A program made the translations under genes and the position numbers. The notes beneath the pieces were generated by a model. The model saw nothing but the letters and a program-made list of their open reading frames with translations, had not been told where the DNA came from and made no database searches. Shown here in pieces: positions 12,177 through 64,000 of a stretch of DNA of 64,000 nucleotides (the stretch's first letter is position 1; the number at the start of each line of letters is the position of its first letter). Source of the DNA: Bryoerythrophyllum caledonicum (Eukaryota > Streptophyta > Bryopsida > Pottiales > Pottiaceae); contig OZ020514.1 of NCBI GenBank assembly GCA_963971425.1, forward strand, positions 41,391,158-41,455,157. The letters run 5' to 3'.

Positions 12177-12543
12177 AGATCTTGTATTAAAAAAACGGAA
12201 CAAGTGTATTCTACCTATTGGAGACCTTGGTACTGGAGTATTACATGATCTTGGAAGCTCAGATCACTTATAAGTGAGGTGCCGAGCATCCCATAGAACC
12301 TTACCGGATAGTGAGAATCCCAAGTTTCCGACTTATTGTTATCCAAGAGAATTTTGAAATCCATCCAGAGTGACAAAAGACCTTAGAGATGCTCTTGCAA
12401 GACTAAGACAACAAGCAATTGCTATCTTAAACATTAATGAGTGCCCGAACTAAGGAAGGAGTCAGCCAACGAGGTGAGATGACTATTGGACATGTCTACA
12501 AATTGGGCTCTTTTCGACATTATTATTTCGACAATTTATGTGA
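12177..12543. other. Spacer between the unrecognised gene and the satellite
   Basis: No gene is recognised here. It may include the 3' untranslated part of the preceding pseudogene. Confidence 0.4.
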
Positions 12544-17682: not shown

Positions 17683-17914
17683 AAGAAGAAGAAGAAGAAG
17701 AAGAAGAAGAAGAAGAAGAAGAAGAAGAAGAAGAAGAAGAAGAAGAAGAAGAAGAAGAAGAAGAAGAAGAAGAAGAAGAAGAAGAAGAAGAAGAAGAAGA
17801 AGAAGAAGAAGAAGAAGAAGAAGAAGAAGAAGAAGAAGAAGAAGAAGAAGAAGAAGAAGAAGAAGAAGAAGAAGAAGAAGAAGAAGAAGAAAAAAAAAAA
17901 AAAAAAAAAAAAAA
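17683..17914. repeat. (AAG)n microsatellite plus poly(A), the expanded SINE tail
   Basis: About 208 bp of uninterrupted AAG triplets are followed by about 23 A. The length suggests expansion of the short TTC-rich tail that the related LINE carries (only a few units at 22536-22548). Confidence 0.95.
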
Positions 17915-18258
17915 TCAACTTCGGTCTTTGAAGGAGACCGGCGTGAATATAGTGTTTGTTCATTCTCTTCACTAAGCATATGGCCACGGGATACAGGCTA
18001 GTGTAATAGAAGTACTCTGTCCTGTCGAAGGTAAACACTTTTGTTTACTAAGTGATTTTCTACACTAATTGCTTTAGAAACAACCGACATCTCATCTCCC
18101 CCTAGGGCTTTGTGGATCCTCATACAACGAGGCCTTGAGACCCCCCACCATAATTGGGTGGACTATGGTGGTAGGCACCACGCCGGCAATAGGACTTGAA
18201 CTCACAACCACCTCACTGGTGTGCCATGACGCAAACCACTACACCAAGGTTGTGGTGC
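17683..18258 (-). mobile_element. tRNA-derived SINE with LINE-like 3' tail and (AAG)n/(CTT)n tract
   Basis: Read on the minus strand, the element starts at 18258 with GCACCACAACC. It shows an RNA polymerase III A-box-like sequence (CTTGGTGTAGTGGTTTGC, 18231-18248) and a B box (GAGTTCAAGTCC, 18192-18203), as in a tRNA-related SINE. The body continues about 270 bp. The 3' part, from GTGTTTACC through CACGCCGGTCTCC, is homologous to the 3' end of the LINE at 22536-22672. The tail is a T run and then about 69 TTC triplets. Target duplications are CACTTGTA (17675-17682) and CTCTTATA (18259-18266). The paralogous unoccupied site near 19118 reads CTCTTGTACTAAACAC, which confirms the insertion and its ends. 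Confidence 0.85.
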
Positions 18259-18607
18259 CTCTTATACTAAATACTTCCACTTCTTAAGACAAAAATGGCC
18301 ACTTACAACAAAATCCAACAATTCCAATCTCTCCAATGTATTATCAAAGCTTGACTTTACAACATTGACGAGCCAAAGAATGTTAGACCACTATATATCC
18401 AACCCTAGATGGGAGAACATCCATCCTAAAAAAGTAAAGCAACTCATGAACATCCACCACACAAAGTACATTACCTACTCAACTACTACTTTGACAAGGT
18501 GATGTGCCCAATGCTACCATGACAACCACTTCGACAAGGTGGTACGCCCAATGATGCGTATTGTGACATGTAGTCAAAGTCTATGATCATATTTGAGCAC
18601 ATATTAA

Positions 18608-22535: not shown

Positions 22536-22799
22536 AAGAAGAAGAGAAAGAATGCCAGTCTCCGATGGAGGCCGGCGTGAATAAAGTGTCTGTTCGTTCC
22601 ACTACTAAGACCATGCCCACTGGACAAGGAATTAGTAAGCTAGAACTACTTCCCTCTCTCGAGAGTAGACACTATGTAACAAGTAGCCAAATAACCACAA
22701 ATCAACCAACCAACCAACCAACCAATCACTATCCAAGCAACTAGCCAACGAACCAACCACAAACCAAGCAAGTAGTAAAAAAACCTCAAAACCAACTAA
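22536..22799 (-). other. LINE copy 1 3' region, stem-loop and TTC-rich tail
   Basis: After the ORF2 stop the minus strand has a GGTT-rich stretch (about 22700-22780). A segment from GTGTCTACTCTCGAG to CACGCCGGCCTCC, ending in CTTTCTCTTCTTCTT, is homologous to the SINE tail. GCCGGCCTCC and GGAGACTGGC can pair around an ATC loop, with one mismatch and one wobble. Confidence 0.7.
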
Positions 22800-25346
22800 T
22801 CATGATAAATCAAGGAGGGGGAAGAGTTTAAGGGGGGGGTCCTGTGTATCGGGGAGGGCTTGGTTGCGTTTATGTAGAAGAATGGACATGGCATATTGAA
22901 TAGCTATGGTGTTAATGTTTTTAAAGGAGGTTTTAATTGTTTCGATGGGTATTTTGAAGGTATCTTTTAGAGTTTTCATAGATGGGATAAAGGTGGTGGC
23001 ACGAGCATCGACCGTGATTACAATGAGGGGGTCCACATTCCATCCAAGGGCGATGATATCGTCAATAAGAGGTTGGTATTTATCTATTTTGTTTTGAATT
23101 GTTTCCGTGGAAAATCTATCGTTGCAATATGTGAATTCAATGAATTGAATGGTGTAGTTTTGGTTAATGTGATCGGGTGGTGGGTCATTGTATGGTAAAC
23201 CTTTAACACAAAGAATGTCCGGTTTGAGTCTAGCATTGCAATGACATCTTTGAGTTTCACATGAGTATGGGAGTAGCCAAGGAGGAACCGTATTTTCTTG
23301 TGGATTGTTATTAAAGGTGCCGGCGTTCATTAATATAAAACATCTCGATTTGTTGTAGGATGTGATTAGCTTTCGAACTTCCCATACCACTTTAATATGT
23401 CTTTTAACAATTAGGGAATGTATGTGGTGATTTTGGCATTTGAGTAGAACATGAAGCCATGTGTCGGGGTCCGTTGAAGGGCATATGGGGCATGTTATGG
23501 ATGGAAATCTTTCTATTCCAAAGAAGAGTTGTTTGCAAGCGTTTCCCATATATTATCCAGTACGGAATTTGATGAGGCATGTTATTTGTGAGTCTGGAAT
23601 GATGGGGTTTTTCCAGAAATTTGTAGAGAGTTCATTGTCTATGTTGTTATTGTTAGTCCATTTTTCAATGTTAGGGATATTTTCTGATATTGTGTCGAGG
23701 TTGTTGCAGAGGTCTTGTTTTTTGAGATATTTGCTTAGAAATCTAATTGGGCCTTTGTCGAGGGTATCTTCTTTGGACGGCTAGTCTTCTTTTTGAAAGT
23801 AGTATGGGGTAGCATGGGCATGTTCATATGGGTCTTTAGCCTTTTTGTGTGTTTTTTCTCGGCCTTCTTTTGCTAGTTTATCTGCTTGTTCGTTGCCATC
23901 AATATTGGCATGGGCTCGCACTTTGTGGAGGGTTGTGATTTGTGTTTGGTTTTGTAACATTCGGACCATTGATATTAATATGGTTTGGTCAGGGTGACTA
24001 TTGTGAAGAGTGGGGTGTGTTATTTGAGTGTTTAGTAGGTAAAGTGCATTTATACAATCGGTGAATATATGTGCGGGTTCATTATTGTATTTTGTTGTGA
24101 TGATTTGTAGTGTTTTGTGAATGGCCATGAGTTCTGCTCTAAGTATGTTTTGTAGTCCAAGGAGTCTTTTGGCTAGCTTGATTTCCTTGGTAGAGTTATA
24201 GATGCCATAGCCAGCTTTTTCTCTTCGCCAAGATCCTGGGCTAATTTGTTCGGGTGGTTTAAAGGAGCCATCGATGTAATAACTATGTGCGGGGTTAAAT
24301 TTTGGTGTGGTATGAGTTGGATAGTTTGGTAGGGGAGATGGTGTGATAAGGTAGTTTAGTGTATTGTTGACATAGTTTAGTTTTGACCATTTTTTACTTC
24401 GGTTTACAGGGGTTTGTATAGGTGTCGGTGGGGTCGATTTTGTATATAATCTTTGTATGTTTAAGTTGTCTGTTATGGATGTAAGTTCGGCAAGTTGCTC
24501 TAGGGTGCCGAGGATTTGATTTTAATGATGGACACATAGTATTTGTAGTGTAGATGGCTTGATTCAGGGTTTTTTTAGCTCGGGTGGAATAGTAGGTTCT
24601 TCGTATGGTATTGAGTCTGCCTCGAATATTGCAATGATATGGGAGTTTGGAAATGGGTCTAAGTGTTGGTTGTTGTTTTGGAACCACTTGTTGTTTGGTG
24701 TGATGATGATTGTACTTGTGTTATTTGGATCATGTTTGGCGGCAAGTCGAGCCCAATGTATTGCTTGTTCCATTTCCTTCTCGATATGGGGGTGAGCTAT
24801 CCCTTTACCGGTCCGTTTGTAGTCAAAGGCTTTTTCCAAGGATCCGAATATTTTGTCTCTTTCAAAGGGTGAGTAGAATTTTTTTAGTTTGGTGGAACAT
24901 GTGACCGGGGAAGAAAAATATGATTGTTTGATGTTAAAGGATGAGATTAGTGAGTCTAAAATGGATGTGGGTATTGTGTATTGGGCGTTTTTGAGGGGGT
25001 CAATTTTTGGTATTCGATATTTATACCTTTGGTAGAGCCAGATTAGTTCGGTTTCAAAGGATTGGGTCATTGGTTCGATGTTTGTAGGAGTTTGTAGTTT
25101 TGTGTTGTATTGATTCCATAACCATTGGAGTCAAGTGACGGGGATAGTGTGTAAATGTCGGCCATTTTCTTTGTATAGATGTGCTTGATTGTTATCCATT
25201 TTAATTGTGTTTAAGAATGCAAGGATATCATTTTCGGGGTTACATTCTGATGTATGGATTTTTAAGAGTGGAATAATTATGGGTGGTGTTACGGATCTTG
25301 AGTCTGGAAATTGTTCGCGGGGGTGGTGAGCTAGGTCGACATCCGA

Positions 25347-25565
25347 GTAAATTTTGTTTTGAGTTTTTTGGTAGTATTGTTTTAATTTTTTGATGTTGTG
25401 TGTGGAGGTGTTGGTGTCGTGTCGCGGAAAAAGGGCTCTTTGGGGAAGCCATTTATTGTATGTATTATCATTGTGTTGCCATTGGCATAGATATTTTGTG
25501 TAGGTATTTTGTATATTATTTGTATCTATATGTTGAATGTGTTTATAGTGTATGATGTTACTAAT
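25347..25565 (-). pseudogene. Chromodomain-like segment of LINE ORF2
   Basis: About 73 codons read IIHYKHIQH, TKYLCQWQHNDNTYNKWLPQ, RALFP and NIKKLKQYYQK. The chromodomain pattern is an I-H-R strand, then YLVKW-x-GY, then a W-x-P-x-x-L motif, then a C-terminal helix with IEEY. The aromatic and tryptophan positions fit (Y/W of the first strand, W and P of the second). If real, it would bind methylated histone tails and steer insertion. Seen: the motif spacing. Inferred: the fold and role. Confidence 0.45.
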
Positions 25566-26694
25566 GGGGTATGTCGTAGGGCTTTTGGGGATGTATGTTG
25601 GGGGGCGGGGGTGGTGTGGATGTGGGGGGTTAGGGGGGTAGACTGGTGGGGGGATGTTTCTTGGAGTGATGCTATTGTTGGTGGTGATGAATGAATCTTG
25701 AAGTATATAGGAGTATGGGTGTATGTTGCAAGGGGTATGACATGTGGTGGGGCATGTTGGGTGGCAAAAGAGTTGTTTAGCAATGTTTAGAGCACTTTTT
25801 AGTAACTTGGATGGGGTGAAGTGATAGGTTTTGAAATCCTCATTGTTCATGATGTGTGTGCCGTTAGGTAAAGTAATTTGGCTTAGTTCAAAGATATTTT
25901 TTGAGAGGAGTTTTTGTAGAAGTTTTTGGGAGAGATGGGTATTGAGTGTGTTGTGATTTAATGTTTCTTGTCGCCATAGCATTTCTAGTGATGTAAGATT
26001 AATGAGGAAGTTTGGGAGTGTACTTTTAAGGTGGATTTTAGCTATGTGTTTTAATAAGAAGAATGTTTGTGTTATTGGTGATCTTATGCAGTCACTTTTT
26101 TTAAATATGGGTATGTTTTCGGCTCCTCCGTATTGGACAAGGACATAATGGATTAGTCCATTATATATTTTTCCAAGTCTACCTTTATCGTTTAAGGCAT
26201 TTTGTAGTTGTTCACGTATACATTGAAGATATGCGTTTTTCAGGGAGAAAGCTTCAAGCTCAAATAGATTATGTGGGAGTTGGGTAATTGCATTTGACAT
26301 GTATTTTGGTAATCCACATATGGTTTTTTGTATGGCTATTATTTTTTTATCAAGTTTTTTTATAGCAGGCATAGAATATGGTAGACCGTAGAAACTATAT
26401 GCCACACCTAGGCGTATTTCTGTATCAACCATTTTTATTTTTTGTTTCATGGTGGCCGGACATGTTGTTAGTTCTTTGCATTGTTTGATGAATTTCGCTG
26501 TTGTAGTGTGGATTTGGATTCTCCATTTTAGTGATGAAACAAGATTGGTACCTAAGTATATGTATGGTTCATTTTGGTGTAGTATAGGGATCGGTTGATT
26601 ACGGTAATTGATGTTGGAAGCTTGCATTAGGGCTTTGAAAGTGGTAGGGTTCATTTTGAATTTGTTTGGGCATCTGGTAGTGGCACATTTTGGG

Positions 26695-26752
26695 ATACCT
26701 ACGTCCATACCGGTCCATTTGCAATACCTACGTCCATACCGGTCCATTTGCA
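26695..26752. repeat. 29-bp tandem duplication in the LINE RT region
   Basis: The phrase ATACCTACGTCCATACCGGT then CCATTTGCA occurs twice in a row. The duplication is not a multiple of three, so it breaks the RT reading frame shortly after the YADD motif. Confidence 0.9.
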
Positions 26753-28552
26753 ATATCTATGAATTTTATTGAGTTGTATTTGGATAGATTTAATTTTGTT
26801 AGTTATGGCGGCGAGGTCATCCGCGTATGCGGCAAAGTTTATTGTGACTTGTGATGTGCCAAAAGTGTATCCATTGTTGCCTCGTTCTAGCCATCTGAGT
26901 AGTGGTTCTAAGAATATAATGAATAGGTATGGGCTAACGGTATCCCCTTGTATAGTCCCCCTTTGGATGGGTATAGGTTTTGTTTTCCCGAAGTGTTCTC
27001 CAATATTGCAAGTGGACGATTGAGAGTAAATATTTCCAACAAGTTTTGTTGCATCTTTTGGGTAACCAAGGTCTATCATTATTGCTAGTAGTCGGGCATG
27101 ATCTATTGAGCCGAAGGTATTTTTAAAGTCAACGTATAGTATGTATATATCTTGGTTTATAAATCTTGCGTCTTCTAGTGTGGCTATTATAGTTTGTATT
27201 TGTCTAGCGGTACTTCTTTCTGCTCTAAATCCTTCTTGACTATCGTGTAGGATTTTGAATTTTTCACCGTATGAGGATAGTATAGAGGTGAATGTACTAG
27301 TGAAGAGTTTATATATTGTGTTAGCTAGTGCAATTGGCCTGTGGTTAGATAGTATAGATGGATCGCCTTTTTTGTATAGTAGAATTGTTGTACTTGATTT
27401 CCATGACGTTGGTATTTGTTTTTGTTTATACAGTGAGAAAAGAATAGGAATAATAATTTATGGAAACTTGGGGGCATGTTTTTGAGTATTGAGTTTGGTA
27501 TGCGATCTAGGCTTGGGGCTTTGCTGTTACCAAGGTTCTGGAGACATGTGTCGTATGTGGCTATGTTAAAGTATTTACGTAGTGGGATTTTTGGTTTGCC
27601 TCGTTTGTCAAGGGTAAATCCATCAAGGTCATGCCATGGGTATTGGCGTACTACACATGTGCATTCCATTGGATGTTGTGGTTGATAATTACATGTTGGT
27701 ATTGTCAGTCTATTGTTTTTTGTTTGTTGGTTGAATATTTCATTTGCGATGTCTTCTGAGCTAGTTAGAATATTGTTGTATTGATTTATGATACAATCCA
27801 TTGGCGGGGATTCAAGGTTTTTAAAGACTTTTCTCTTAATTTTTTTGGGGCTAATTTCGTATAGTTGTCTGTATTTTGAAATGGCATTCTTAATGTTATC
27901 TTTGGCGTATTTTGAGGTTATTTTTTGGGCTTTTATGTTGGCATTTTTTGCTATTAGTGCAATGTCCTTTATCCATGTATCGTGAGGTAAATCCGGCGGT
28001 GGCGGGGTAGGGATTTGGGTGTGTTGTAGAATTAGTAGTTCAATGCATATGGGGTGGTTACACCATTGAGGGTTGTTTTTTACAGTTCTAATGGTTTTCC
28101 ATATAACATGGTATGTAATTAGGTGTTGTTTCCAAGTTTTAAAAAGTTTGCGGGGGAGATATTTGCCTTGTTGAGAAGTTCTGTTTGTCATTTTAGGTAA
28201 TGGGTGGGCTCTACAAGTTTGTTCTAATGTGTCAGAGATTTTATTGATGAGTTTGTCTAGGGTGTGGCATGCTTCTTGCCACTGTATTTGTGATAGTTGA
28301 CTGTTGTTTTCAAGGATGTTTGTGAGAGAATCTATTCGCATGGAGTTTTCTTCAAAGAATTTTGTGTTGAAATTTCTTACATTGTCTTTTGGTATAGGGT
28401 TGAGTATGCGTATTGTATTATTGTTTGGTATTGTGGGAGTTCTATTAATTAATGTGTTGTCTGGAATGTGCAATCGTGTGGGTGAGTGGTCCGAGTTGAG
28501 AATATCATCTTTGTTTGTTGTAGAGGTGGGTCTCGGTCGACTAAGCTAGTAT

Positions 28553-29367
28553 GAAAAACCTGTCACAAATGGTGTCGGGACAAGTCACGAGCCTTTGTTT
28601 GCAACCTAGTGCCAATGTAGGATTGATTTTGGAATTCTTCTAGTGAAATGTAATTTCTTACTTCAATAGCAATATGAGAATCCTAAAAAATTAGAGTTCC
28701 GGCCCATGCTTTGGCCAATAGAAGTATATCTTTCATTACTACATACAGGTCACATGTATCTCAAATCAGACAAATATACTTTTTTTTGGAGTTTCAGGAG
28801 GTAAAATACTTCGAATTTTTTTGGAAGGCATTCATACCATAATGTGCTCCTACATTATGATTGAAAATTCTAGATCCAAAACTTAATTTGGCTTTTATTG
28901 ATAAAAAATAAGCTATTTTTTCAAGAAGCCTAAATAAGAAATTAATGTTGATTTTTGCTCCAAATTCTTATCCAACCTTCATTAGTATACAAAAATCTAT
29001 CTTGGTACATAAAAAAAATTCAAAAAAACTTTTTTCTTCCATCATTTTCTTCAAAACCTAGTTTTTGGTGCCTTGATTCAACATATATACTGCGTAGTAT
29101 ATTTGGTATATTTTCAGTCTCTGCAGTATGCAATGTACTCATCTCGGGAAAGGGTTCGGCCACCTATAAATCGACATGTGTTATGACAACACAAAGTCCA
29201 AAAAATCAGCACTTTCTTCAAGATATTTTTTGTTCACCTAACATTTTATTGGCCATGATTTCTTTACACCTAATCAATGGACGGTTGGCATTCAACAACA
29301 ATTTAACAAAGGGCTCCAAAACAAATATACTCTGCAATATATTTTTTTTGCCCAAAAGTGAGTAACC
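28553..29367. mobile_element. About 0.8-kb insertion inside the LINE APE endonuclease
   Basis: The endonuclease reading is cut between TWVEVH and the NSDHSP motif. The intervening sequence is AT-rich, non-coding and unlike its surroundings. On the minus strand it begins CACTAAGG and ends CTTAGTC, so the ends look like a degenerate CACTA-type inverted terminus. The exact ends and target duplication are unclear. It is best described as a short non-autonomous DNA element. Confidence 0.55.
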
Positions 29368-30769
29368 TTAGTGGACTTCTACCCAGGTGTGTTGTGTATT
29401 GTTGTTTGTATTTATATAGAATCCATCTATTAGGCTCCAATCACTGTAATTGTAGCCACCTTGTCTAGAGAATTGTGTATCGGTATTGATGAAAATGAAG
29501 TTTAGGTTTTCTGTGAAGCGGCGCCATTGGTAATCAGTGTTTTGAGGGGGGGTGTTATGATTTCCATTTTGGCGACCTATTAGTGCTATGTCTCTGTTGA
29601 AGTCTCCACATAATAGGTATGTGTGATTGGGGTTATTATTAATTTGAGATGTAAAAGTGTTTTGTATGTCTATGATATATCTAGTATCTTCGGGATGAGA
29701 TGGCATATACATGTGAAAGATTAACCATGGTTGTAGTGGGTGGTTAGTGATTTTGATTATTTGAATATAAGGTGATATATGCATTGGGGTGGGAATTTTG
29801 TTGATGTTGCCCGGGAAGGCATATTTTTTGTGTATTAATGTAAGGAGGCCACCACGGCCCACTGTGTATGGTCTCCGTTGATGGATGCATCTTGTAAGTG
29901 CATGTGTATTGTTAAAGATGAGTTTATAGTCTTGAAATATATTTTGTATACATTTTATAGATTTTGTGGCGGATATTTTTGTTTCTTGTATAACTATGAG
30001 GGTTGGTGGGGTGGTTGTGTGCGTGACCAAAGTTTGTAAGCTAGATAGGGCAGTGTTTAGAGAGGAGGCATTCCATGTGATTATGTGTGTATCTTCTTGA
30101 TTTATTCTGATGTTTTGATTTTGTGGAGGGATGTAGGGAAGTAGTGGTGGAGGACGGGTGTATTCTGATATAGGGTCTAAATATTTTAGTAGTTCGTTGA
30201 TGAGATTGTTAGGGAGGTACGGGAATTTTAGTTTTATTGTTTTATTTGAGGGAGGTATGATTTGACTATGTAAAAAGTCATATAGGTTATTATGTATTGA
30301 GGTTTCATGGTTTATAATATTTTGGTTAAGAAACTTTATATAAGGGTGCGTAGTGTGAATGTATCGTTCTGGTGGGTTTTGTAGGTTTAGTAGAGTTTGT
30401 AGTAATGTATTGGTCCATGTCATTGTGTTTAAGTTTTGTGGATTTAGGAGATGGTTGCAATCATCTATGTATGGATAAGTGGTGACTACTAGGGCATATA
30501 GGATGTGGGGTGGTGGGTGCATATTTTTTTGTTGTATGTATTGGGCAATGTTTGGGTATGTAGTGTTTTGTATGTGGTGTAATGTATGTGTGTTTTTGAA
30601 GAAAGGTGCGAAGGATTTTGTAATGTGTTTATATTCCGGTTGGAATTTTATGGTATTCGGTATGAAGTATATTTTGGCATTTTTCTTATGTGATGTAGGG
30701 TGTCTTTTTAGTATATTAGACATAAGTCTCGGGTTGGTTTCTATGTCTCCGCTAAAAAGTATTAGTAGT

Positions 30770-31758
30770 TTTATGTGCTTGGGTTCGGTTGTGTGTTTTA
30801 GAGTTCTTTTCTGTGTTATTTTTTGGTATTTTCTTACGGTCTTGGAGTTGTGTTTTTTTGGGAGTGTACGCTTCTTTGTTCGGGGGGGTTGTTGTATTTG
30901 TATTCGTAATTATGGCGAGTGTAGGGATATTAGGTGTATAACGGTTTTTTGGTGTTTTTGTTTTTATTTATTGGTTAATGTGTGGGATTGTGTCTTTTCT
31001 TGTGATTATGGTGATAGTTTTGTTTTTTTTGTGCATGTTATGTGTAGTTGTATATTTACGTATTTTTTTGTTTTTTGTTTATATTTGTATTTTTGTGTTG
31101 ATTTTTGTTTGTGTTTGTATTTTTGTATTGTTTTTTGTTTATATTATGGTGCAACTTTTTGTTTGTATTTGTTTGTTTTTTTTGATGTTTTGTGTATAGG
31201 TGTATATGTGCGTGCATTTATGTACAAGTATTTGTGTGTATATATTTTATTATATATTTTTATGTGTGTTTTTTTAATCATTTTTTGTCCTCTTTGTTTG
31301 TGTATTTGTGTATTTGATTTTGGGTGTATTTATGTATGTGGTTTTTTGTGTATTTGTATGGGTATATGTTTGGAATTGTATTTATGTTTGTATGTTTGTG
31401 TGTATGTATTTGTATAATTTTGTGTATGTATTATTTGGTATTCGTATTTGGTATAGTAGGTGTAGTAGTTGGGATAGTGGTTCGTATGGTATTTGTATTT
31501 TGTATGTAGGGCGTAGTATTTAATACTTGTTTGGTATACGGTGTAGTAGTTGGATATTATGTAGGCATACTCGTAGTGTAGTGTATATTTTGTATTTGTA
31601 TAAAAAATCATATAGTCTTTGAATATAGCTTTGAGGTTTGTGAGGTCTACTATGTATATTGTAATAGCGAGGTAGATGTATTTTTCTAGAGTAGAGTACG
31701 GTATGTGAAGGGTAGTAAATACTAATTGGCAACTATGTATTACCTTGAGGTCTTTGGA
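30770..31758 (-). other. LINE copy 1 inter-ORF region, strongly G-poor on the coding strand
   Basis: Roughly 1 kb between the ORF1 stop (TAA near 31759) and the 2A-like motif. The plus strand is almost only T and G with A, so the element's sense strand is nearly G-free. The 2A frame is open only from about 30912 and contains no ATG before the 2A motif. The long cysteine/phenylalanine/tyrosine-rich plus-strand frame here is an antisense artefact. Confidence 0.6.
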
Positions 31759-33200
31759 CCTTACATGTTTGGCGGCCTATCTTCAAGTCTAGGTGGTATT
31801 CTTCCTTTCATGGCTTGGAATGCAAGCGTTGTGGCATTCATGGTTTCCTCCATCATGTCTAGGTGTTCCATCAAAGAGTTGTGGAGGATGTCGGTGTACC
31901 TCTTGCTTTCTTCTATCACCTTCTTGTTGTTCTCCTCCAAAGCCTCCTTCAACTCCTTCTTGGTGATGGCGGTCGAGGTGTCTTGTATCTTGAAAGTGGC
32001 AATGGTGTTGACCATAGCGGCATTGATGTCATTGAAACCAAATGCGTTGATTTGCTCCTCCGTGGGGGGTTGTGTGCCTTCCAAGCTCTTCCAATGTGGG
32101 GGTGAAGTCTGTCACCAATGTCGAAGTGTTTTCTAATAAATTGTTTGTATACTATTGGGTTAGCACATTCCACAATAGCTTTGCCATTGTGCCTACCTCC
32201 AATTTCTTTATGAAACCATATGGACTTAACATTATTCACTCCCATGATTTTTTGGATAGCATTAGTAACATCTTGCACATTCATGAGAAGAGGCAAAAGA
32301 GAGAGGGTGAGGGATATTGCATCTTTCCTTGCCTTGGTCTCGGGAGTCATGCGACCACCGTTATGGGTCTTCCTTGCCTTGATGACTTCGTGGTGGGTGG
32401 TGATGTGTTGAAGTTGGATCTTGGAGGCTTGTATAGGAGTGGTGGCGACAATGAAGGCATGTGGATCTCCTTCTACTATGGACACTCCCGTGATCTCGTA
32501 GTCTTGGCCACGCTTGAAGCTATTGATGAGGATGTCTTTGAAGAGTTGGTGTGCGGAGATACCTATCAATGTATCACTACGCACTTGCACAGAGAGGTTA
32601 GAAGACTTAGCAATTTGGGGGTAAGCTGTACATACTTTCCCAATGATGTTTTGATTGTTTATGGTGAGAATGAAAGGCCTAATGCCTTTTAACAACATGA
32701 GAGCATCGGTTGCGGGGTTTAGTAAGTGTAATTTAAACATGGCGGTCCACACTCCATTTTACCCACCTTTCTTAACACTATGACAACGGATATAGATAGG
32801 GTCCATAACTCCTAGTTTAATGTCCATGCTTTCAAGCCTATGTGTTATCATTTTGTAAACATCATCATGCAATAAAATGGAAGGGGGGGGGTTCAAAGTG
32901 GATAGCCACATGGAAACCATGTGCCAAACCTGTGGCACCATTGACTTTGGTGTGTTGGGAAATCTAGGTGATGTTGTAGTGTTGCTCCTCGCTTCCCGCC
33001 CGTGCAATGGGATAATAGAGTTGGGGTATCCATGGATAGGCCACCATTGACATCTTGAACTCCTTTACCTCGTGCTCCTGGAATCCTCTAGTCACCATAT
33101 CTTCCACCTTCTCATCATATAGAAGTTCTTCTAGCCCTTCTTCGATTGCAAGGCGTTCCATGTCTTCAAATCCTAGCCAAAACTTGAGAGACATGGTCAT
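31759..33200 (-). pseudogene. LINE copy 1 ORF1 (RNA-binding-type protein), frameshifted
   Basis: Pieces in three frames match the intact ORF1 at 61.0-63.2 kb. The N-terminal piece has MTMSLKFWLGFEDMERLA and SMVAYPWIPQ. The middle (31949-32752) has LLKGIRPFIL, GKVCTAYPQIA, FKRGQDYEITGVS, GGRMTPETKARKDAI and KAIVECANPIVYKQFI. The C-terminal piece (31761-32084) has EEQINAFGFNDINAAMVNTI and coiled-coil-like sequence. The partner phrases in copy 2 are LLTGIRPFIL, GKVCKSFDSIA, FKRGVEYEITTVT and RGRMTEDEKAKKNAI. ORF1 proteins of LINEs usually bind the element RNA as multimers, and that role is inferred. At least two frameshifts are present. Confidence 0.75.
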
Positions 33201-33701
33201 TGCGTTAAGGGGAGGGGATTAGCTTACCTCTTCTTGCGTGCTCTTGCTCTTCTTGGTGTTGCCATTTTCTTCCTCTGTATACTTTCTTATTCCTTTCTCT
33301 CTCCAATTTAATGTTGAACTTGTTCCCACACCATCTATGTCCATGTTTTCCTCAAATCTAAGGTTTTGTTTTGTGATGGACATATTGTTAGCTCTACTTG
33401 TTGTCTTATTTATCTTGCTATTTGACTTGTATCAAAAGGAAGAAAGGTGACAGACGTACCTTTTTGAGGGGGGGGCTTACTTGTTGGCTTGGATGGGAGG
33501 ACGTTGGTTTGCTGGTGTAGGAGGTCGTTGGAGCGGTCACTAGGTGCTGGAGTAGTTCGTTGAGGCGCAGTAGGTCGTAGGGACTTTTGAGTAGGTCGTT
33601 GGCCGGTTGTGGAGGGTCGCTCGCCCTTGGGTGGGTCGTTGGCACGTATTCGGGGAGGTCGCAGGCACAATAGCGAGGGTCGCACTTTGACTGGTGCTAC
33701 C

Positions 33702-33928
33702 ACTGGGCTGGGTGTGGGAGGCCGTTGGTGCGGAATGAGAGGTCGCTGTTGAAGGCAGGGGTCACTGGTTCTTGACAATAGGTCGCTAGCACGTATCGAG
33801 TGATCATGGCACTACCACTAGACTGGGTGTCGGAGGCCCTTGGTGCGGAGTGAGAGGTCGCTGTTGAAGGCTGGGATTGCTGGTTCTTGGCAGTAGATCG
33901 CTAGCACATATCGAGTGATCTTGGCACG
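33702..33928. repeat. Tandem repeat, two units of about 115 bp
   Basis: Both units contain GACTGGGTGT-like starts, GAGAGGTCGCTGTTGAAGGC and ATCGAGTGATC. Confidence 0.8.
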
Positions 33929-34265
33929 ATGTAGGGAGTCTCAGGCACAAAGCAGGGGTCTCATGCAGTATTGCTGGTCTTTTGTTGAGTTGCTAGCCTA
34001 GCTGGGTGATGTGTAGGTCCTTCCACCTTGTATGATGTGCTCCTCCGGAGTCCTCTTTGTGCTATACTCGTCTTCTCTCCTTCACTTTTGAGTTAATGAT
34101 GTGTGTTGCGTGCTCCTTCTAGATCACCTACGTACTCTGTTCTTCTTCTCACCCTCTTTCGAAGTTGATGGTGAGTGCTGAGTAGCTTCGGCATTTGACT
34201 GGACCTCTTGGTCCAGTTATGGGTGCCGCTCAAGTTCTGTCGCTGGTTCTTGTGGGTTTCTGGTA

Positions 34266-34390
34266 TCGATGTTTTTTGACGTGAGTCTCCCTTCGCTTAA
34301 GCTAACTTCTTGTCTTGTGGTGTCGACGTTCTGGATGCGAGTCTCCTGTCTCTTAAGCTGACTTCTTATCTTGTGGTGTCGATGTTCATG
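34266..34390. repeat. Tandem repeat, two units of about 57 bp plus a partial
   Basis: Units begin TCGAYGTT and share GCGAGTCTCC-like and CTTAAGCTRACTTCTTRTCT followed by TGTGGTG. Confidence 0.8.
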
Positions 34391-36055
34391 TGTCCTGTGT
34401 TTGGATCAGTGTCTAGGTCGATACGTCTAGGTCGGTACGCCTTCAGTTCAGGTCTGAGGTGCCTTGTGGCGATGTCTGGGTTGGTGGCGTCTTCCTAAGT
34501 CGGGTTTTCTTATTCTAAGTCGCTGGACCTTTTGGTCAATCATTGGTTGTCAATCTCTGGGTTCTATGCATCTAGTTTCTAATCTACTGGGATTATTAGA
34601 ATATTAGTTTATGAGTCTGTGCGGTTGGTCCAGAGGTTGGGTGCTAAGATGCGTTTTGTCTAGGGTTCTCGCTGTGTCGATTGAGGTTCACGATTTCTAT
34701 TGCTTGGCTAAGTCTAGGTTTCTATTACCAGATTAAGTCTATGTTTGACTGTTCGTGCCGTCCCTGCAGGTGGGGTGGCTGCAGCTCCCTGGTGGCTCTT
34801 GCTCACAAGTGTCGTCTTCTTCCGATGATGCTTCTTGGGGTGGCCTTGTCCAGGAGTTTCTTCTTAGCTGCGGGCATTTCTGCAGGGCGATCTTCACAAC
34901 GTTGGCGTTGTTCTTCTATTGGACCTTGATTCGGATGTTGGTGTGAGTCCGGAATGTGGACTTATGCGCTTGAACTGCCTTCTATGTACCTGTAACTTCC
35001 AGTAAATATGTGCAGCGCTTCCGCGCACTACTATAGATGTGCAAATCTCTATGTATGTGCTCAGGGTTTTATATGATCTAGGGTTAGGTTAACTTAGTAA
35101 GTTTAGGCTAGTATTATCACTACTTATGTTCTAATCACTTTCTTAGGTTATATCAATAAGAGACTTGTATTACAAAGAGTGCTTTGTTAATACAGATCTA
35201 GTGCGTTAATACAAGGAACTGAAAATGAGTATTTTTAAAGCTTATTAGGATAGATGTGTACTTGCTGCTTCCTGCTATTGATGTGACATTCTCCGGAATT
35301 GTGGGTGCGTTTGTTGTTGCTCGAGGTTGTTGTGTGTGCTTGGTGCTCGTTGTTGTTGGTGTGGCGTTCTCCAGAGTTGTGGATGCGGATGTTGCTGCTG
35401 TAGTCCTTGTCTTGCAATGATGTAAAATGAAAAACTGGGTTTTGGGGGGGTGGGTGACTAATCGGAGAGGTCTGCAGCTCTAGTAACCAATCGTTCAGAT
35501 CTGGGGTAAATCTTGTTGCAAGAGACTTAGCTAGATCTATGTACCAACACTTGCTCCCATGCTTCTCAGTACATGCACACTGTAGATCTAAGGCTTTGTC
35601 CTCCATTCACTCCACACAAACCCCAGATCTAAAACCTTTTTGAGCCCTTTTCCAACAAGATTTGCTTCCCAACCTCTCCTTCCTTTCAAAACTAAGACGT
35701 GTTGTGAGCTCTCACCAAGGTCAGCCACCTCTTGGTGTCCACAATCTTGTTTGAAACTAAGTCTCACCTCCCCTCACCAGAAATTTCGGAGCTCACTCAG
35801 TCTTCATCTCGCCCCTCTCTTTTCCATTTCCGAAAAAGACATTGTTTTGTGTCTACATGTAGACAAGCTGCAAATTACAATGTACATTGTGCCCTTGGTC
35901 TTTAGTTCACTTCAGGCAGACATATTTATTTTCACACAATTTTATTTTATAATTTCAATTACTATTTACCATAATTTCAAACATGTTACTAAATTATACA
36001 TCAATAACTGAATGACAACTAAATAATCATATGAAGAAAATGATAATAAGAGCAC

Positions 36056-36535
36056 TCACTTGCGATACGATGTTAGCAATGTTGATAATTCCAATGAATT
36101 GAATAGTATGAAGTCATTGGCCAACTTTCTTGTACTAGGATCAAGGATTACATACTTCATAGCTCCTTCGACTGTTGTACCATGCAATGTTTTATCAAAT
36201 GATTCCCATGTTGTTGACCATTTTACAAACGCTGGATCCTTATTCATGTGTGTCTCTACTTGTTCAAATATTGCATATCTCTCAGCAATATTGGCCTCGA
36301 GATGTGTTTTATTCTTGACCATTCCTTTTAAAACTCTTAGATATCTCTCAGTAGGGTACATCCACCTTAAATGTATAGGACCACATAAAAACATTTCAGG
36401 GGCCAAATGAATCACTAAGTGAAAGGATATGGTGAACATAGCCGGAGGAAATGCCATTTCCAATTTGCACATAGTATCGGCAACAAAATCTTTAACATAA
36501 TCCTCTTCATTCTTGTGAAATTGTCTTGCACACAA
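36056..36535 (-). pseudogene. CACTA transposase DUF4218 region
   Basis: The frame reads LEMAFPPAMFTISFHLVIHL, GPIHLRWMYPTERYLRVLKG, VKNKTHLEANIAERYAIFEQ. This is the conserved DUF4218 pattern (FPP-FF-MHL-HL, GPV-RWMYP-ER-L--LK, ARPEGSIAE-Y) that follows Tnp2 in En/Spm transposons. The 5' end joins VHNMKPFVNYQSYFES in another frame, so there is an intron or break near 36530. Confidence 0.85.
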
Positions 36536-36595
36536 GATTCAAAATAACTTTGATAATTTACAAATGGCTTCATATTGTGGACGAGGCAACCGACC

Positions 36596-47382: not shown

Positions 47383-47387
<5 letters not shown>

Positions 47388-47410: not shown

Positions 47411-47414
<4 letters not shown>

Positions 47415-57590: not shown

Positions 57591-60500
57591 TGGTGAAGGT
57601 TTTTTGTGATAAAAAATCATAATTCTCTACATTCACATTGTATCAAAATATTTTGAGAGATCGAGGAGATGAGAGAGGAGTAGCTCCGTAAATCCTGGTT
57701 AGGAGGGACATTGAGGTGTTAGGCGCAAATGCGAGGCACACAAACAGTGAGGGTTGCTGGGCTCATTGTAGATCCCGTTGTGTCCCTCCTTTGCTGCTGA
57801 ATGGTACACTTATGGTGTGTAGAAGGTTGGAAGGGATGGCAAATTGTTGATCTATCTACTATTGAATTTGAATGGGGACGCAAATACTAGCATTAGTCTG
57901 AGAGAGTAAGTCTGTAGCGGGGCTCTTGTGTTGGCTCAGATCTAGATCTAGACTCTGCTCCCTCCATATCATCTTCTTATTAAGTAGATCCAGATTTGGA
58001 TACCACAACACCATAGGAGCACCGTACACCAAGTCCCTCTACAACCAAGATGCAAGCATCAGCATGAAGAAAGTTCATTGGACACACCAAACTCAAGCCA
58101 GACGCCAAGACACAAACACCACTTACAAAGACCAACGATCCTTAAAATCAGCTAAGTTATTTCCATACATCGCATTGTTTCACTACTCTAGATCTTGCAA
58201 TCATGGTATGCACTTGTTAGTCCAACGATCCTTAAAATCACCTAAGTTATTCTGTGTATCTCCATATTCCTTATTGTTCCATTACTCTAGATCTTGCAAT
58301 CGTGGTATGCACTTGTTAGTAACTGCAGACAAACACCAGCTACTCATCAAAGGTAGACCACCTCTACCCAAATCTGTAGAAGCCAACGCTGCCAACCTGA
58401 AGCGACCTCCAAGTAACGAGTTATCGCACCCGGACTCTGGCACGGACGAATCAGAGCGCCATCGTCCCGGCCGACACTGCAGACCGCCAGCCCGACACCA
58501 CAACCATCACATGGACGAACTAAACAGTCTTCAGGTGCAGTCTAGCGCGAAAGCCGATCAGACCCCTGGAGACACCGAAATATTCTCAACGACAACGGAG
58601 CTCTCAGATCTCGCCTATCCCAAAAATCTACAGGCATTTTCTTACCAATATTCTCATTCCACTTGTTATATCAAACCACAAACTCATATTAGAATAGGAA
58701 AACGTCAGCCCAATACACACACAAGTAGATCACAATCACCCACTACACTAGAAATAGTACAGCCTCCATATCACTGCACTAGCAACCTGCACAAACCCAA
58801 CATTACTAACAACCAGTTAACTAGTCCTCAAAATACCAAACCTACAGTACTATACATTTCTAATCAGCAATGAGCTGCAAGCACAGAACTTCGATGCCCG
58901 CAGGAAACCTCACCAAGCTGCCATGGGCGAAGATTGCCATCGCTGTCCTGCACAGTGAACACAATAGACAATGGAGAATCAAGCAACAGCAGCCAACACA
59001 AGAGTGCACTACAACAAATGACGGACGATCCACTCAGGAAGACGCCGACGCAGACAAACGCGAACCCTGGGAATCAAGAAGATATCAGCCCAGTAAAACT
59101 CCGGCAACAACAAAAGTCGACCTCTCGATTCAGAACGTCGAGGACACAGGTGGACAGAGACACTGCAAATCAAGGAACTCCAAACTCAAGAAGAAACCAG
59201 CAGACAAACACAGAACAACGCCCCCGATGCTCCAGCGCATGAAGACGAGGACCATCGACGCAGCTACATCAAGAGAAAGAGGCGAAGATTCAAGACTTAA
59301 CCACTCCTGAAGACAAGGACGAGGCATCAGAAGATAAGGACATCAAGACTAAGTATACAACCCAGAAAAGACAGAAGACCTTCATCTACAAACCAAGCGT
59401 CAACACAGGCAAACACAGTCCACAAGCCCGGATGCTGAAATACAAGGCGACAAGGCTTATCAACTCAAACGCCTCACAAGACAAAGGCGACAAGCTCAAG
59501 ATTAATGGAAGAAGTCTGCTGAGACTGGACACCAGAAAACAAGCTTCCATCGGATACAAGAATTTCGAGGGAGGAACCAACGTGGAGTCCAGGAAGCCAC
59601 CACACCCGACGTCTACCCACGCCACCATTCCAACGGCACCATCCTCGACACTAAAATTAGCGCCAACAACGACCCGAAACCCTAAGAAGCCAATCGACCA
59701 GCCACCAAGCCGCCATGAGGAGCAAGAAACCCTAGCCACGAAGAACCGACATATAAACCAAGTCCAACAAGCAAGAACTCCCTCTTACGTCCTAACATCA
59801 GGAGTCACGTTGTCACCCAACGCATCGCACACCTGCTCGAGCACGGGAGCACGAGTGAAGGAAGCACGCTCGGGGTATGAAGTGCCTGGGGGGGGTGAAC
59901 GCTCGCGGGCTGGAGTATTAGCGGAGGGAGAACGCCGTGTCAACAAGGCCGCAAGAACGAGAGCAAGTCGAAGAGCGTGGAGCACAGGGCCGCCCCCGCG
60001 CATCGCCACCTTGGTGAATTGTCTCTTTACTCTCTCAGTTGCTCCTGTTTGCATTGCTTGTATGTATTGCATGCTCCCCACTTGTCTACGCTGCCTACTT
60101 CTGTTGTAAGGCGCAGGCGAAGGACAAGACCCTTGAAGCCAGAAGACCAGGAATCCCGAAACCCCGAACTCCGAAGGCCAAAGACCCCGAAGACCGACAA
60201 CCCAGCGCTCGAAGCTCCGCGACATTGGAGTTGGCGCGCCCACAACACACTGCCCTCGAAGAATGCCACACACAGGAGTAGGCCCAGAACACGAAAGCTG
60301 AACTGCCAACCAAGACTTGCCCGGCATCAAAGAAAGTGGCCTCGAAACGTGCCGTCCCCACGATGTGCACGATACTGTGGTAGAGTTGCCCGAAGAAGGC
60401 GAAGGCAGCCCTGCAACGAGGAGTCCCTGCAAAATACACGACACAGTGGAGAATCAAGAATCCAAGAGTCAAAGTACCAGCGGCGGACAACGTCGAAGGG

Positions 60501-61041
60501 GCGTAGGTGCTTACCCAAGAGAAGAGCCGTGACGGAGCCCAAGAAGCCAACTAGGAGAGACAGCCTGCAGACGACACATGCCGTTGAAGACAAGCGGAGC
60601 ATCAACACACTACAACCCAAGAAAGGCTCCCCAACCCAGAACGAACCCGAGACGCTGCCAACACAGCCCCTGCCCCGAAGACAAGCCCACCACCATCACT
60701 ACACTACACCATTTCGCAGTTGCAACCCACAGCGGCCTGGAGAGAGCTTGAAGATTAGGCCTATTAACTTCGTCGCAAGTACTCAAGAGCTAAACTGGCG
60801 TCCTCAACAAGGAAGGCTGGCAAGAGGCAATCTGAGCCTCTGGAGGTTAATTTAGCTGCTAGAAGAAAAAGTGACCCCCTTGTTATCAACAACGACAAAA
60901 GAATTGCACAAGGAGGAAAGAAAGGGAGCCAACCAGCAGCCAAGAAGCCCACAAGGTTGGTATTGGTTTGATTTTGTTGATTTGCTTCATAGTGTGGTTT
61001 ATTGTATAAACCCACTATCATGTAGGTTTTATGCATCTAAT
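57591..61041 (+). promoter_or_regulatory. Upstream/5' region of LINE copy 2
   Basis: The interval before ORF1 has no recognisable domain, despite several ATG-started open frames (for example 57926-58873). It becomes GC-rich at 58.4-60.8 kb. A tandem duplication of 90-99 bp lies at 58132-58320. The length and the presence of tandem repeats parallel the 5' region of LINE copy 1, but I could not align the two. The 5' end of the element is not defined, and part of this could be other repeat DNA. Confidence 0.4.
58132..58320. repeat. Tandem duplication, two units of 90-99 bp
   Basis: Both units start CCAACGATCCTTAAAATCA, contain ACTCTAGATCTTGCAATC and end GTATGCACTTGTTAGT. Confidence 0.9.
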
Positions 61042-63162
61042 ATGAAGCTATGCCAAATGGAAAGACACACCACACATTCAAGTGGTGTGTCTACTATATG
61101 TCTCTTTGCACTAGGATGTAGAAGCAACAAATGGGTTAAGGATGTGTGCCAAATGTCTTGCTTAGAATCTAGAACTCATGTTGATAGAAATGCTAGAATA
61201 TTCCGCTTTACTTGTTGGAACCATGGTACCTCAATATTAGGACTTATGCAATGTTTAGATCATGTCTCAAGTCGTAAGTGTCTAGCAATAACAAGGCAAT
61301 TTTACTACTATAGTAATCCATGCCCTGGTAAATATTGTACATTCTGCAATAGTGGTAAAAGAGGTATCATACTTGATACCGCTTTGTACCTCAGCATATT
61401 GCTACAACATCACTTCCAACCCCACTCCTCTATCCTACACGGCCCACAACTTAATTTGTGGAATGGTTGGAGTAGTGGAATTATTGGAAGCCCCCCTCTC
61501 TTGAGAAAAATCTCCTTACACCTCTCTTCCTTACCATGTAGAATGATTACACCACAAGTGGAAGCATCATCCTGCTCCAACAAAGAGGACTCCAACAATA
61601 TGGACGTGTCACCCATCAAACGTCTAGAAATAGATGTTGCACCATCATCATCTCTTGAGGTAAGGGCAGTAAAACATGGGAGACCCCCTTTCTGGTTAGG
61701 CTTTGATGCTCTAAATGCTCTAGGACAAATTCATGAAGGTCCCCGTGTCAAACACCTTAGTGTCAGTGAAATGCAACTTGGAGGGATGAATGAATTGGAA
61801 GCGATAGAAGCAAGTGAGGCAGTCGTGTCCTATCCATATGTCACGCAAGAGCAATGGCCCAACACTAGAGCTGATGGAAAAAAGGGAAACCATCTAAACC
61901 TCACACAACTTCCTCGTGATGTAGAGGTGGATGAATATGGCTTCTCCCTTGATTACCAAATCGCCATCTCTTTTGAGATAGGTGAAAGCATTGTCTCAAA
62001 GGACACAGTGTCAAGGCAAGTGAGAGAAAGACTTACACACATGAATATCCCACTAGGGGAGAACATGGCCCAACCAATAGCAGTCATGTGCCTTCATAAG
62101 TCCGAAAATTGGAGTGGAGTAGTCAAAATCCATCTAAAAAACCCTGTAAAAGATGCTAGTGACCTCCTTACGGGGATTCGCCCCTTCATCCTTAAACTAG
62201 ATGAAGCCGTGCCTGTGAGAGGAAAGGTTTGCAAGTCCTTTGACTCCATTGCCATCCAAAGACTCCTTTCAGTAAGGATTAGTAGCCCTTCCCTCAAAAG
62301 TAGAAAATGGTTTGATGTCCTTTTTGAAATAGTAAATGAAGGATTTAAAAGAGGAGTAGAGTATGAAATAACCACAGTCACAAAAAAAGAAGTAGCTGAC
62401 TTTGCATGGGTGAAAGCACCAACACCGGAGGAGGCAAATAAAATAAAAGAACAAAAAATATATGCAGACAGTGAGGTGTTTGTACCAATTTTTGCGAAAC
62501 GAGGAAGAATGACGGAAGATGAGAAAGCCAAAAAGAATGCCATTGTCCTAATTGCCCAAAACTTGAACAAAACCAAATCCACCCATGAATTAGAAGCAGC
62601 CATCAAACAATTCATGGGAGAAGAGAATGTTGTTAGTATCTTTTTTAGACTTGAGAATGGGAAACATGTCGGATCTTGCAATGTGGAGTGCAAAAATGCA
62701 GCGGTTTACAAGAAATACCTAAACAAATGTGAGAAAATGCTCAACAAATATGTTGAGTTTATCGCTCACCCTCGTAGCATGGACAGAAAACTTAGACCTA
62801 GTCCGGAAGAGCTGACTAGGCTTGGATTTTCAGATATTAACACGGCAATTGCAAACACCGTAGAAACCCTAAACATCACAACGGGGGACACCTACAGCAA
62901 AAAAGACATTGACACCCTAATCGATGTCGTAGTAGCCAAGAGCTCTAAAGCTACTATGGGAGAAATCAGGCAAGAAATGGATAGTCTGAAAGAGGCTATT
63001 GTAACGGAGGCCAAAACATATGTAGACACTGTACATGTCAAACAAATCAAAAACACCAGCGCACTTAGAGCTGAAATAAGGGCATTACAAAACCAAATGA
63101 GATCATCCATGATGATCATGGACCAACTCCTTCCAACAGACTCCTTGGAGCAGCCAAACTAG
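61042..63162 (+). CDS. LINE copy 2 ORF1, intact
   Basis: 706 codons run from an ATG at 61042, and the frame is open further upstream to 60856 without another ATG. The N-terminal 200 residues are cysteine-rich (CLFALGCRS, CQMSCLES, NPCPGKYCTFCNSGKRG) and have no counterpart found in copy 1. From HGRPPFWLGFDALNALGQ onward it matches copy 1 ORF1: LLTGIRPFIL, GKVCKSFDSIA, FKRGVEYEITTVT, KRGRMTEDEKAKKNA, VECKNAAVYKKYL, LTRLGFSDINTAIANTVE. The C-terminal 80 residues (KKDIDTLIDVVV to RALQNQM) look coiled-coil. A shorter start at about 61600 (MDVSPIKRLE) would match copy 1 better. The role is inferred: RNA binding and particle formation, as for LINE ORF1 proteins. Confidence 0.75.
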   Translation: MKLCQMERHTTHSSGVSTICLFALGCRSNKWVKDVCQMSCLESRTHVDRNARIFRFTCWNHGTSILGLMQCLDHVSSRKCLAITRQFYYYSNPCPGKYCTFCNSGKRGIILDTALYLSILLQHHFQPHSSILHGPQLNLWNGWSSGIIGSPPLLRKISLHLSSLPCRMITPQVEASSCSNKEDSNNMDVSPIKRLEIDVAPSSSLEVRAVKHGRPPFWLGFDALNALGQIHEGPRVKHLSVSEMQLGGMNELEAIEASEAVVSYPYVTQEQWPNTRADGKKGNHLNLTQLPRDVEVDEYGFSLDYQIAISFEIGESIVSKDTVSRQVRERLTHMNIPLGENMAQPIAVMCLHKSENWSGVVKIHLKNPVKDASDLLTGIRPFILKLDEAVPVRGKVCKSFDSIAIQRLLSVRISSPSLKSRKWFDVLFEIVNEGFKRGVEYEITTVTKKEVADFAWVKAPTPEEANKIKEQKIYADSEVFVPIFAKRGRMTEDEKAKKNAIVLIAQNLNKTKSTHELEAAIKQFMGEENVVSIFFRLENGKHVGSCNVECKNAAVYKKYLNKCEKMLNKYVEFIAHPRSMDRKLRPSPEELTRLGFSDINTAIANTVETLNITTGDTYSKKDIDTLIDVVVAKSSKATMGEIRQEMDSLKEAIVTEAKTYVDTVHVKQIKNTSALRAEIRALQNQMRSSMMIMDQLLPTDSLEQPN

Positions 63163-63164
63163 TT

Positions 63165-63466
<302 letters not shown>

Positions 63467-63470
<4 letters not shown>

Positions 63471-63520
63471 ACAAACTACTAATCGCACTTTGTGGAGACA
63501 TAGAAACGAACCCTGGCCCA
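63467..63520 (+). other. 2A-type ribosome-skipping motif before ORF2
   Basis: The codons read YYKLLIALCGDIETNPGP, directly followed by the ATG of ORF2 at 63521. The 2A consensus is D-(V/I)-E-x-N-P-G-P, usually after a hydrophobic stretch and a Gly. All fixed positions match. 2A peptides make the ribosome skip the Gly-Pro bond, releasing the upstream product and continuing downstream. They are known in several APE-type LINEs of animals and trypanosomes as well as in viruses. Confidence 0.85.
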
Positions 63521-64000
63521 ATGCCTAATGTCTTCCAAAACCACCCAAAAATACACAAAAGATTATCTAAAATATATTTTATCCCAAATACTATAAAACT
63601 CCATCCCGAATATCAACACCTAGCATCCTCGTTTGCACCTCTTCTAAAAAATAATCACACCCTTCACCAAAATTATTCCACTCTCTACCCCAACATCTCC
63701 CGTTACATACACCAAAAAAAACACTACCACCCATCCTCACATATACTATTCGCCATAATTACCACCCTCCACCCCTCTATAGACGAATGCAACAATATCA
63801 TCAATCAACATTCTACCAACACAAACCCAACAAACTAGACAAATATATTCCTAACCACCTTATCCTCCCTACATAATCCCCCCGAAAGACATATAGATAC
63901 ACTCCACCCATACACCAAATTCTTAGAAGAAAACCAACACCTCCTCAAACACAAAACCTCTCTACACATTGACCTATATAACTTTATTCATAGCCAAACC
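63521..64000 (+). pseudogene. LINE copy 2 ORF2, N-terminal part with a nonsense codon, continues off the window
   Basis: The frame MPNVFQNHPKIHKRLSKIYF, IPNTIKLHPEYQHL matches copy 1 (MSNILKRHPTSHKKNAKIYF, IPNTIKFQPEYKHI). A TAG at 63836 falls about where copy 1 has a Trp codon, and the frame continues beyond it (NPPERHIDTLHPYTKFLEEN). This is the unassigned N-terminal domain before the APE endonuclease. The sense strand is strongly C-rich and G-poor. With the remainder unseen, it cannot be said whether the single stop is the only lesion. Confidence 0.75.

Follow-up and report, generated by a model that had tools for sequence, protein, structure and literature searches.

The 64,000-nucleotide stretch of DNA analysed here (contig OZ020514.1; hereafter the window) carries on its minus strand a long interspersed nuclear element (LINE) of about 13 kb. 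This LINE probably represents a sizeable plant retrotransposon without long terminal repeats that was active in recent times, belongs to the Dualen/RandI kind and has acquired additional modules. A preliminary description of the window had proposed a plant LINE of this type with two nucleases, and the predicted anatomy supports the assignment: an apurinic/apyrimidinic-type endonuclease (APE), a putative restriction-like endonuclease (RLE), a ribonuclease H (RNase H) and a 3′ tail other than poly(A) occur in one element. In those parts of the sources that were available, Dualen/RandI elements likewise unite an APE with a PD-(D/E)XK nuclease and have an RNase H, a non-A 3′ repeat tail and short interspersed nuclear elements (SINEs) that carry the LINE end (PMC4640811, PMC3636483, PMC3747384). 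The window LINE differs in its tail, which is (TTC)n and not (ATT)n or (CTATTT)n, and in its host, a land plant or close relative; the available text of a 2015 source lists Dualen/RandI for green algae only (PMC4438587), and that of another reports it from cryptophytes too (PMC12747079). A domain resembling PCIF1/CAPAM, a chromodomain-like stretch and a 2A (StopGo) peptide seem to exceed what we know of Dualen, the algal elements being compared by description only. Together with a SINE that shares the LINE end, these are the more novel parts, and they were absent from the preliminary description.

Relatives of the window LINE were searched for in the 437-Mb assembly of the host. LOB-domain genes, which are not known outside land plants and close algal relatives, gave 23 matches there and none in 14 control genomes, so the host is a land plant or close algal relative, most likely the former, in agreement with the plant lineage proposed before. 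The genome search for further copies, which the preliminary description had called for, returned many: the reverse transcriptase (RT) query gave 4,355 candidates, of which 150 were scored, and 42 of these 150 shared the same score of 497.6 bits, 33 of the 42 keeping an open frame of 3,087 aa. Ten copies (A–J) were taken as stretches of 14.4–14.6 kb, nine chosen because their frames are long and one, D, for being closest to the copy in the window. In the nine, the second open reading frame (ORF2) is single and spans 2,363–2,365 residues, counted from 15 residues ahead of the 2A core; in D it is broken. No difference separates B from C over 2,363 aa and 9,898 bases. The two main families are 91–92% alike, and matched pieces of the distant families L041, L042 and L046 are 56–75% identical to copy A. 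No relative turned up when viral contigs were scanned with an RT alignment, the C-terminal domain or the RT of the window copy.

Both endonucleases appear to be maintained in these families. Three copies with an uninterrupted frame (A, E and H) were examined for the APE motifs N, E, GDFNRD (D-x-N), SLIDG and NSDH, and all three have them. At the C terminus, KPD (RPD in L046), IEF(T/A), KYQ and GW.VDP...GARA are conserved, preceded by the CCHC knuckle and a CxC..CxC cluster (one knuckle cysteine is lost in the L042 row), and in the rows that reach them these C-terminal motifs are kept between families only 62–70% alike in that region. Ratios of nonsynonymous to synonymous change (dN/dS; Nei-Gojobori, with domain borders set by hand) between copies B and H were 0.09 for the APE, 0.08 for the RT, 0.07 for the chromo-like part, 0.11 for the PCIF1-like part, 0.22 for the RNase H and 0.09 for the RLE, the last being 0.08–0.09 over three family-level pairs. 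Values of about 0.09 indicate strong purifying selection on both endonucleases between families. A structure model of the RLE, built from 14 rows, has the order helix-strand-strand-strand-strand-helix-strand and core blocks with a predicted local distance difference test score (pLDDT) of ~65–78. Foldseek gave 484 matches to this model in the Protein Data Bank (PDB) at E up to 10, and ranks 1 and 2 were R2 proteins, 9dou and 9nl2 (E 0.023 and 0.027; probability 0.85), with the aligned R2 segment unreported. By their titles, ten of the first 12 are R2 or arena- or bunyavirus L nuclease or polymerase chains, the eight within ranks 3–12 being arena- or bunyavirus L chains, and in a viral structure library the model also matched many L proteins. 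Arena- and bunyavirus L proteins contain PD-(D/E)XK nucleases. Motif conservation, dN/dS and the Foldseek order, each scoring weakly, support the view of the preliminary description that the C-terminal region behaves as a restriction-like PD-(D/E)XK nuclease.

The RT was compared with R2 and L1. Scores against the RT of the window copy were 71–82 bits for bird and turtle R2, 56–58 for human L1 and 44–48 for silkworm R2; with a longer RT stretch of a relative, vertebrate R2 scored 107–112 and silkworm R2 53–57, and L1 failed to reach E 0.001. Among solved structures in the PDB, vertebrate R2 is the nearest RT. L1s of the host itself were found through the zf-RVT family and represented by two loci; five RTs of the family scored 102–130 bits against two vertebrate R2 segments and 66–89 against these host L1s, over alignments of differing length. 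The higher scores with vertebrate R2 argue that the RT does not belong within plant L1. Of the two outcomes that the preliminary description had set against its own proposal, an RT within plant L1 and a C-terminal region at background level, neither was obtained. R2 thus resembles the window family in its RT and, by the fold ranking, in its C-terminal nuclease. R2 is site-specific and, to our knowledge, has neither APE nor RNase H, whereas the window family has both and its insertions are dispersed. In the available part of its source, the Dualen RT is placed between R2-type and APE-type LINEs (PMC4640811); our RT scores, a pairwise comparison with R2 and L1, are compatible with that place.

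Between the RT and the RNase H lies the PCIF1/CAPAM-like domain, which resembles the PCIF1/CAPAM m6Am (N6,2′-O-dimethyladenosine) methyltransferase in its PF12237 core, above the curated cut-off. PF12237 matched 11 of 12 rows of alignment A2 (best 2.1e-14). The genome gave 2,614 candidates, of which 150 were scored, and every one of these exceeded the cut-off (best 59.2 bits); none of the 14 control genomes had a match. In the alignment to PCIF1 (6irx), the F.SP...C and D..FGS blocks are common to both, and NPPF, the catalytic motif, faces AHPH. The copies read have AHPHN, AHPQN, APPHN, ADPHN, AHPHT, AHPHS or, in the window, AHPHI at this position, never NPPF; the LINE domain thus differs from PCIF1/CAPAM in this motif and in being fused within a LINE polyprotein. 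Its dN/dS was 0.11–0.14 between families and 0.20 for H and E. A search of titles and abstract openings in the open-licence literature found no fusion of PCIF1 with a retrotransposon or reverse transcriptase. The chromo-like part gave at best E 0.026 in a relative (14.9 bits, against a cut-off of 25.1), and a profile search of the PDB placed the CBX4 chromodomain second (E 1.3).

In all nine fetched uninterrupted copies ORF2 opens with KLLLLLGGDIETNPGP followed by M, the core being GDIETNPGP. Between copies A and E the 2A codons show synonymous changes only, which suggests that the 2A is translated. APE-type LINEs with an N-terminal 2A were reportedly described by Odon in 2013; the present family likewise has DIExNPGP where its RT protein begins, and we know of none that also has a restriction-like nuclease. 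The frame upstream of the 2A stays open for 693–1,358 aa in the nine copies; the A/C richness of the strand alone keeps frames open. Upstream of ORF2, a long frame is present in E to I and absent from the stretch taken for J; the element may not need ORF1, or may receive its product in trans. The 2A core is given as (D/G/C/N)(V/I)ExNPGP in the part of a source available to us (PMC12846837), a rule followed by all nine uninterrupted ORF2s and by a second LINE in the window; the window copy has NPRL. In copies A and G (L009, L021) the ORF2 start, with a decayed second 2A, is repeated upstream of the conserved one.

The 3′ ends were collected by a pattern search, which gave 20 distinct ends; 18, two of them from the window, were aligned (A4), and L016:2903 and L028 were left out. 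The A4 ends share one fold, with 95.4% of cells paired. Two-sided changes occur in 16 of its 42 pairs, compared with 5.0 in shuffles (none of 500 as high) and 3–5 when the fold is slid along the alignment; because the ends are related and the structure was derived from A4 itself, the result supports the fold but falls short of proving it. A single 3′ end folds at z −5.64, and Rfam matched nothing in the window at its gathering cut-off. Nine of 14 pairs of ends have an exact duplication of 11–13 bp adjoining the tail, the first T of which may belong to the tail. Among the others, the 10-bp duplication of L064/L065 does not adjoin the tail (uncounted), L058/L059 has 6 and C has 7, overlapping the start of the element; copy A has 5 bp by script and, by eye, a 12-bp repeat with one mismatch, and L062/L063 reads as N. 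At least eight of the nine duplications differ, and two of the target sites (L056, L074) fall within members of a single repeat family; insertions are dispersed and not confined to one fixed site. The L1 target is TTTT/A, and the targets here are by eye unlike it. The window also holds a SINE-like repeat with the same 3′ structure. The genome gave 2,378 candidates for it, and all 40 that were scored span the greater part of the repeat at 89–100%; we take its head to resemble a tRNA promoter (A and B box), and ARAGORN found no tRNA in the window. Sharing of ends between LINE and SINE is on record for RandI in Chlamydomonas, in the part of the source available (PMC3747384).

Several observations weigh against reading the window LINE as a dual-nuclease element of this kind with added modules. 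The RLE model has a low mean pLDDT (52.6) and no Foldseek match below E 0.001. In the comparison with PD-(D/E)XK folds that the preliminary description had suggested, the fold ranking pointed to R2, and sequence searches of the RLE against solved structures gave nothing credible (best E 0.2, to unrelated molecules). With the window RT, silkworm R2 (43.6–47.6 bits) fell under human L1 (56.3–58.2), and R2 scored 62–86 bits with the host L1s themselves, that is, equally alike. The closer pair H and E gave noisy dN/dS values, 0.81 for the APE (2 and 6 changes) and 1.13 for the chromo-like part (1 and 5). The PCIF1-like domain matched PDB sequences at E of only 0.26–0.61, a model of the chromo- and PCIF1-like parts (pLDDT 37.4) was too poor for use, and Chromo matched weakly in six of 12 rows, under the cut-off in every row scanned. 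The frame ahead of the 2A is weakly constrained (dN/dS ~0.4–1.2), the second window LINE has no in-frame AUG ahead of its 2A, and copies A–C (L009–L014), the most uniform young family, have no ORF1 frame of at least 250 aa. A plant L1- or I-type LINE with the APE alone, its C terminus a zinc-binding tail in which KPD...E stands by chance, would suit these sequence searches and the finding that no Pfam nuclease family passed the cut-off in the C-terminal region. We regard it as quite improbable, because KPD (once RPD), IEF, KYQ and GARA are kept under a dN/dS of 0.08–0.09, the strand and helix order and the Foldseek ranks point to R2, and the RT is nearer to vertebrate R2 than to host L1. It is unlikely, too, that an R2/R4/NeSL-type element unrelated to algal Dualen acquired an APE secondarily: convergence would agree with the best RT scores falling on vertebrate R2, and Dualen is known here by description and not by sequence, but the insertions are dispersed, and APE, RLE and RNase H are described together for Dualen in the available parts of two sources (PMC4640811, PMC3636483). 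To a patchwork of nested elements mimicking one ORF2, at which the three frames and the nested insertion of the window copy might hint, we give hardly any credence. A single frame runs through the nine fetched copies, Pfam recovers the domains in an uninterrupted copy too, and the second window element, 62–80% alike by region, has the same order, so that the architecture is not an artefact of stitching; the claim of one ORF2 in the preliminary description thus stands for the other genome copies and fails for the window copy, which is broken by frame changes, stops, a duplication and an insertion.

It seems doubtful that the PCIF1-like domain is a working methyltransferase for cap or mRNA adenine with which the element marks its RNA: the domain is constrained and recognized in nearly every row, and the available part of one source holds that PCIF1_WW, the Pfam name of the family, is wrong and that these are CAPAM-like RNA methyltransferases (PMC7641849), but the NPPF position is altered in all copies read. 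The changed motif together with the strong constraint leads us to prefer a binding role over methylation, and the domain most likely binds the RNA of its own element at the capped 5′ end without methylating it. A fuller version, in which the captured PCIF1/CAPAM fold is a conserved, non-catalytic reader of the capped or cap-adjacent adenosine and, together with the two nucleases and a chromatin reader, lets both RNA ends be recognized so that full-length copies are favoured, is put forward only tentatively.

From the domains, the selection, the 3′ fold, the duplications and the shared SINE end, which are observed, we infer the following cycle for the dual-nuclease LINE. A transcript would be produced and, in families that have an ORF1, coated by its protein. 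The ORF2 chain would then be made, and the 2A would free an enzyme of ~2,350 residues at the enzyme's own N terminus. This enzyme would bind its own RNA at the 3′ fold and the (UUC)n tail, the chromo-like part might direct it to marked chromatin, and the PCIF1/CAPAM-like part would hold the capped 5′ end. One nuclease would nick the target, and at this nick the RT would begin to copy the RNA (target-primed reverse transcription); the template would be removed by RNase H, and the other nuclease would cut the second strand, leaving the 11–13-bp duplications. The SINE would borrow the 3′ fold of the LINE.

In the window copy itself, Pfam (for the APE, RT and RNase H) and motif reading confirmed the minus-strand features of the preliminary description in their proposed places (Table 1). 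The order on that strand is 5′ untranslated region (UTR), ORF1, an A/C-rich stretch, ORF2 (30909-22800), 3′ UTR and (TTC)-type tail. ORF2 lies in pieces in three frames, and its in-frame stops are TGA, TAA and TAG; an alternative genetic code was ruled out by this mixture. A splice acceptor at the polypyrimidine-AG near 22540 was also dropped, as relatives have the element's tail there. The Exo_endo_phos match (28.6 bits against a cut-off of 24.5) falls in 29368-30909, and the C-terminal motifs were read as KPDI (~23225), IEFT (E at ~23138), KYQPL and GWNV. No Pfam family matched ORF1. By eye, the 5′ UTR opens with a GAGATG...GAGCTCCG..TTTCTGGT block similar to the beginning of relatives; when both window LINEs were compared in their 5′ regions, BLASTN gave no match. 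An imperfect flanking repeat, ATGTAGACACAA / ATGTAAAACACAA, was found by eye, and a script search for a target duplication of this copy found merely an 8-base word common to both flanks.

Table 1. Features of the two LINEs and the SINE-like repeat in the window.
Feature	Position	Strand	Evidence or remark
Whole LINE copy, broken, with nested insertion	22545..35846	-	3′ tail via relatives; 5′ start by eye
5′ UTR (approximate)	33430..35846	-	holds 2 x 115-bp tandem repeat
ORF1 (broken)	31761..33218	-	40% identical to ORF1 frame of second LINE (211 aa, E 5e-39)
2A (StopGo)-like peptide	30724..30774	-	decayed to GDIETNPRL
APE-type endonuclease, split by insertion	28470..30081	-	Exo_endo_phos 1.4e-6; SDH motif ~28490
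Nested insertion, ~860 bp, inside APE domain	28529..29387	.	probable 5-bp duplication CACCT
Reverse transcriptase, YADD	26699..27457	-	RVT_1 3.1e-25 (Pfam)
29-bp tandem duplication, frame-breaking	26695..26759	-	
Chromodomain-like stretch (tentative)	25410..25532	-	Chromo E 0.23, under cut-off
PCIF1/CAPAM-like domain	24684..25091	-	PF12237 E 4.5e-13; NPPF position AHPHI
RNase H	23859..24227	-	PF00075 2.1e-12 (Pfam, in 23781-24521)
CCHC knuckle, CPIC..H....C	~23436..23492	-	by reading; conserved in relatives
Putative restriction-like endonuclease domain	22960..23270	-	KPD, E, K; DARA here, GARA in relatives
Conserved 3′ RNA structure, then (TTC)-type tail	22547..22684	-	
SINE-like repeat, 355 bp	17916..18270	-	3′ RNA structure of LINE; ~70 TTC units, tail within 17683-17914
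Second, related LINE (start approximate)	57640..64000	+	truncated by window end
ORF1 frame of second LINE	60856-63162	+	
2A of second LINE	~63470-63520	+	

The second LINE is 62–80% alike to the family by region, with an RT identity of 79–80% to copies A and H. Its 2A is KLLIALCGDIETNPGP, and its ORF2, which extends into L029, has the same domain order and is also broken by stops. Just upstream of the first LINE, on the same strand, lies a DUF4218 frame (36056-36538; 1.1e-25), and near that LINE a DUF7869 frame (45101-45931; 1.3e-34), each perhaps part of another element; DUF4216, expected in the 3′ flank of the LINE, was not found there. A long terminal-inverted-repeat element occupies 46498-57531: one pair of 778-bp arms is 100% complementary, additional arms contain 34/45-bp subrepeats and stretches like TTTAGGG, and DDE_1 matched under the cut-off (52290-52922; E 0.002). 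Elsewhere, a decayed Copia element spans 5060-10628, its direct repeats (5060-5234 and 10456-10628, 98–99% alike) flanking an RVT_2 frame (3.1e-66), and ~3.7 kb of degenerate tandem repeats of 30/42/72-bp units lie at 12484-16221.

In the available part of one source, dual-nuclease LINEs are held to mark the passage from nucleases of the restriction-like type to those of the APE type (PMC4640811). The host offers a system for testing why two cutters are kept: uninterrupted copies that are almost identical are numerous, both nucleases are under selection, the 3′ ends are defined, target sites are duplicated, the 3′ RNA covaries, and a SINE shares the LINE end. In a plant genome, the 2A would be an instance of StopGo put to natural use; for plant viruses, the available text of one source gives no evidence of StopGo (PMC12846837). 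The cap-enzyme-like domain would tie retrotransposition to recognition of the mRNA cap.

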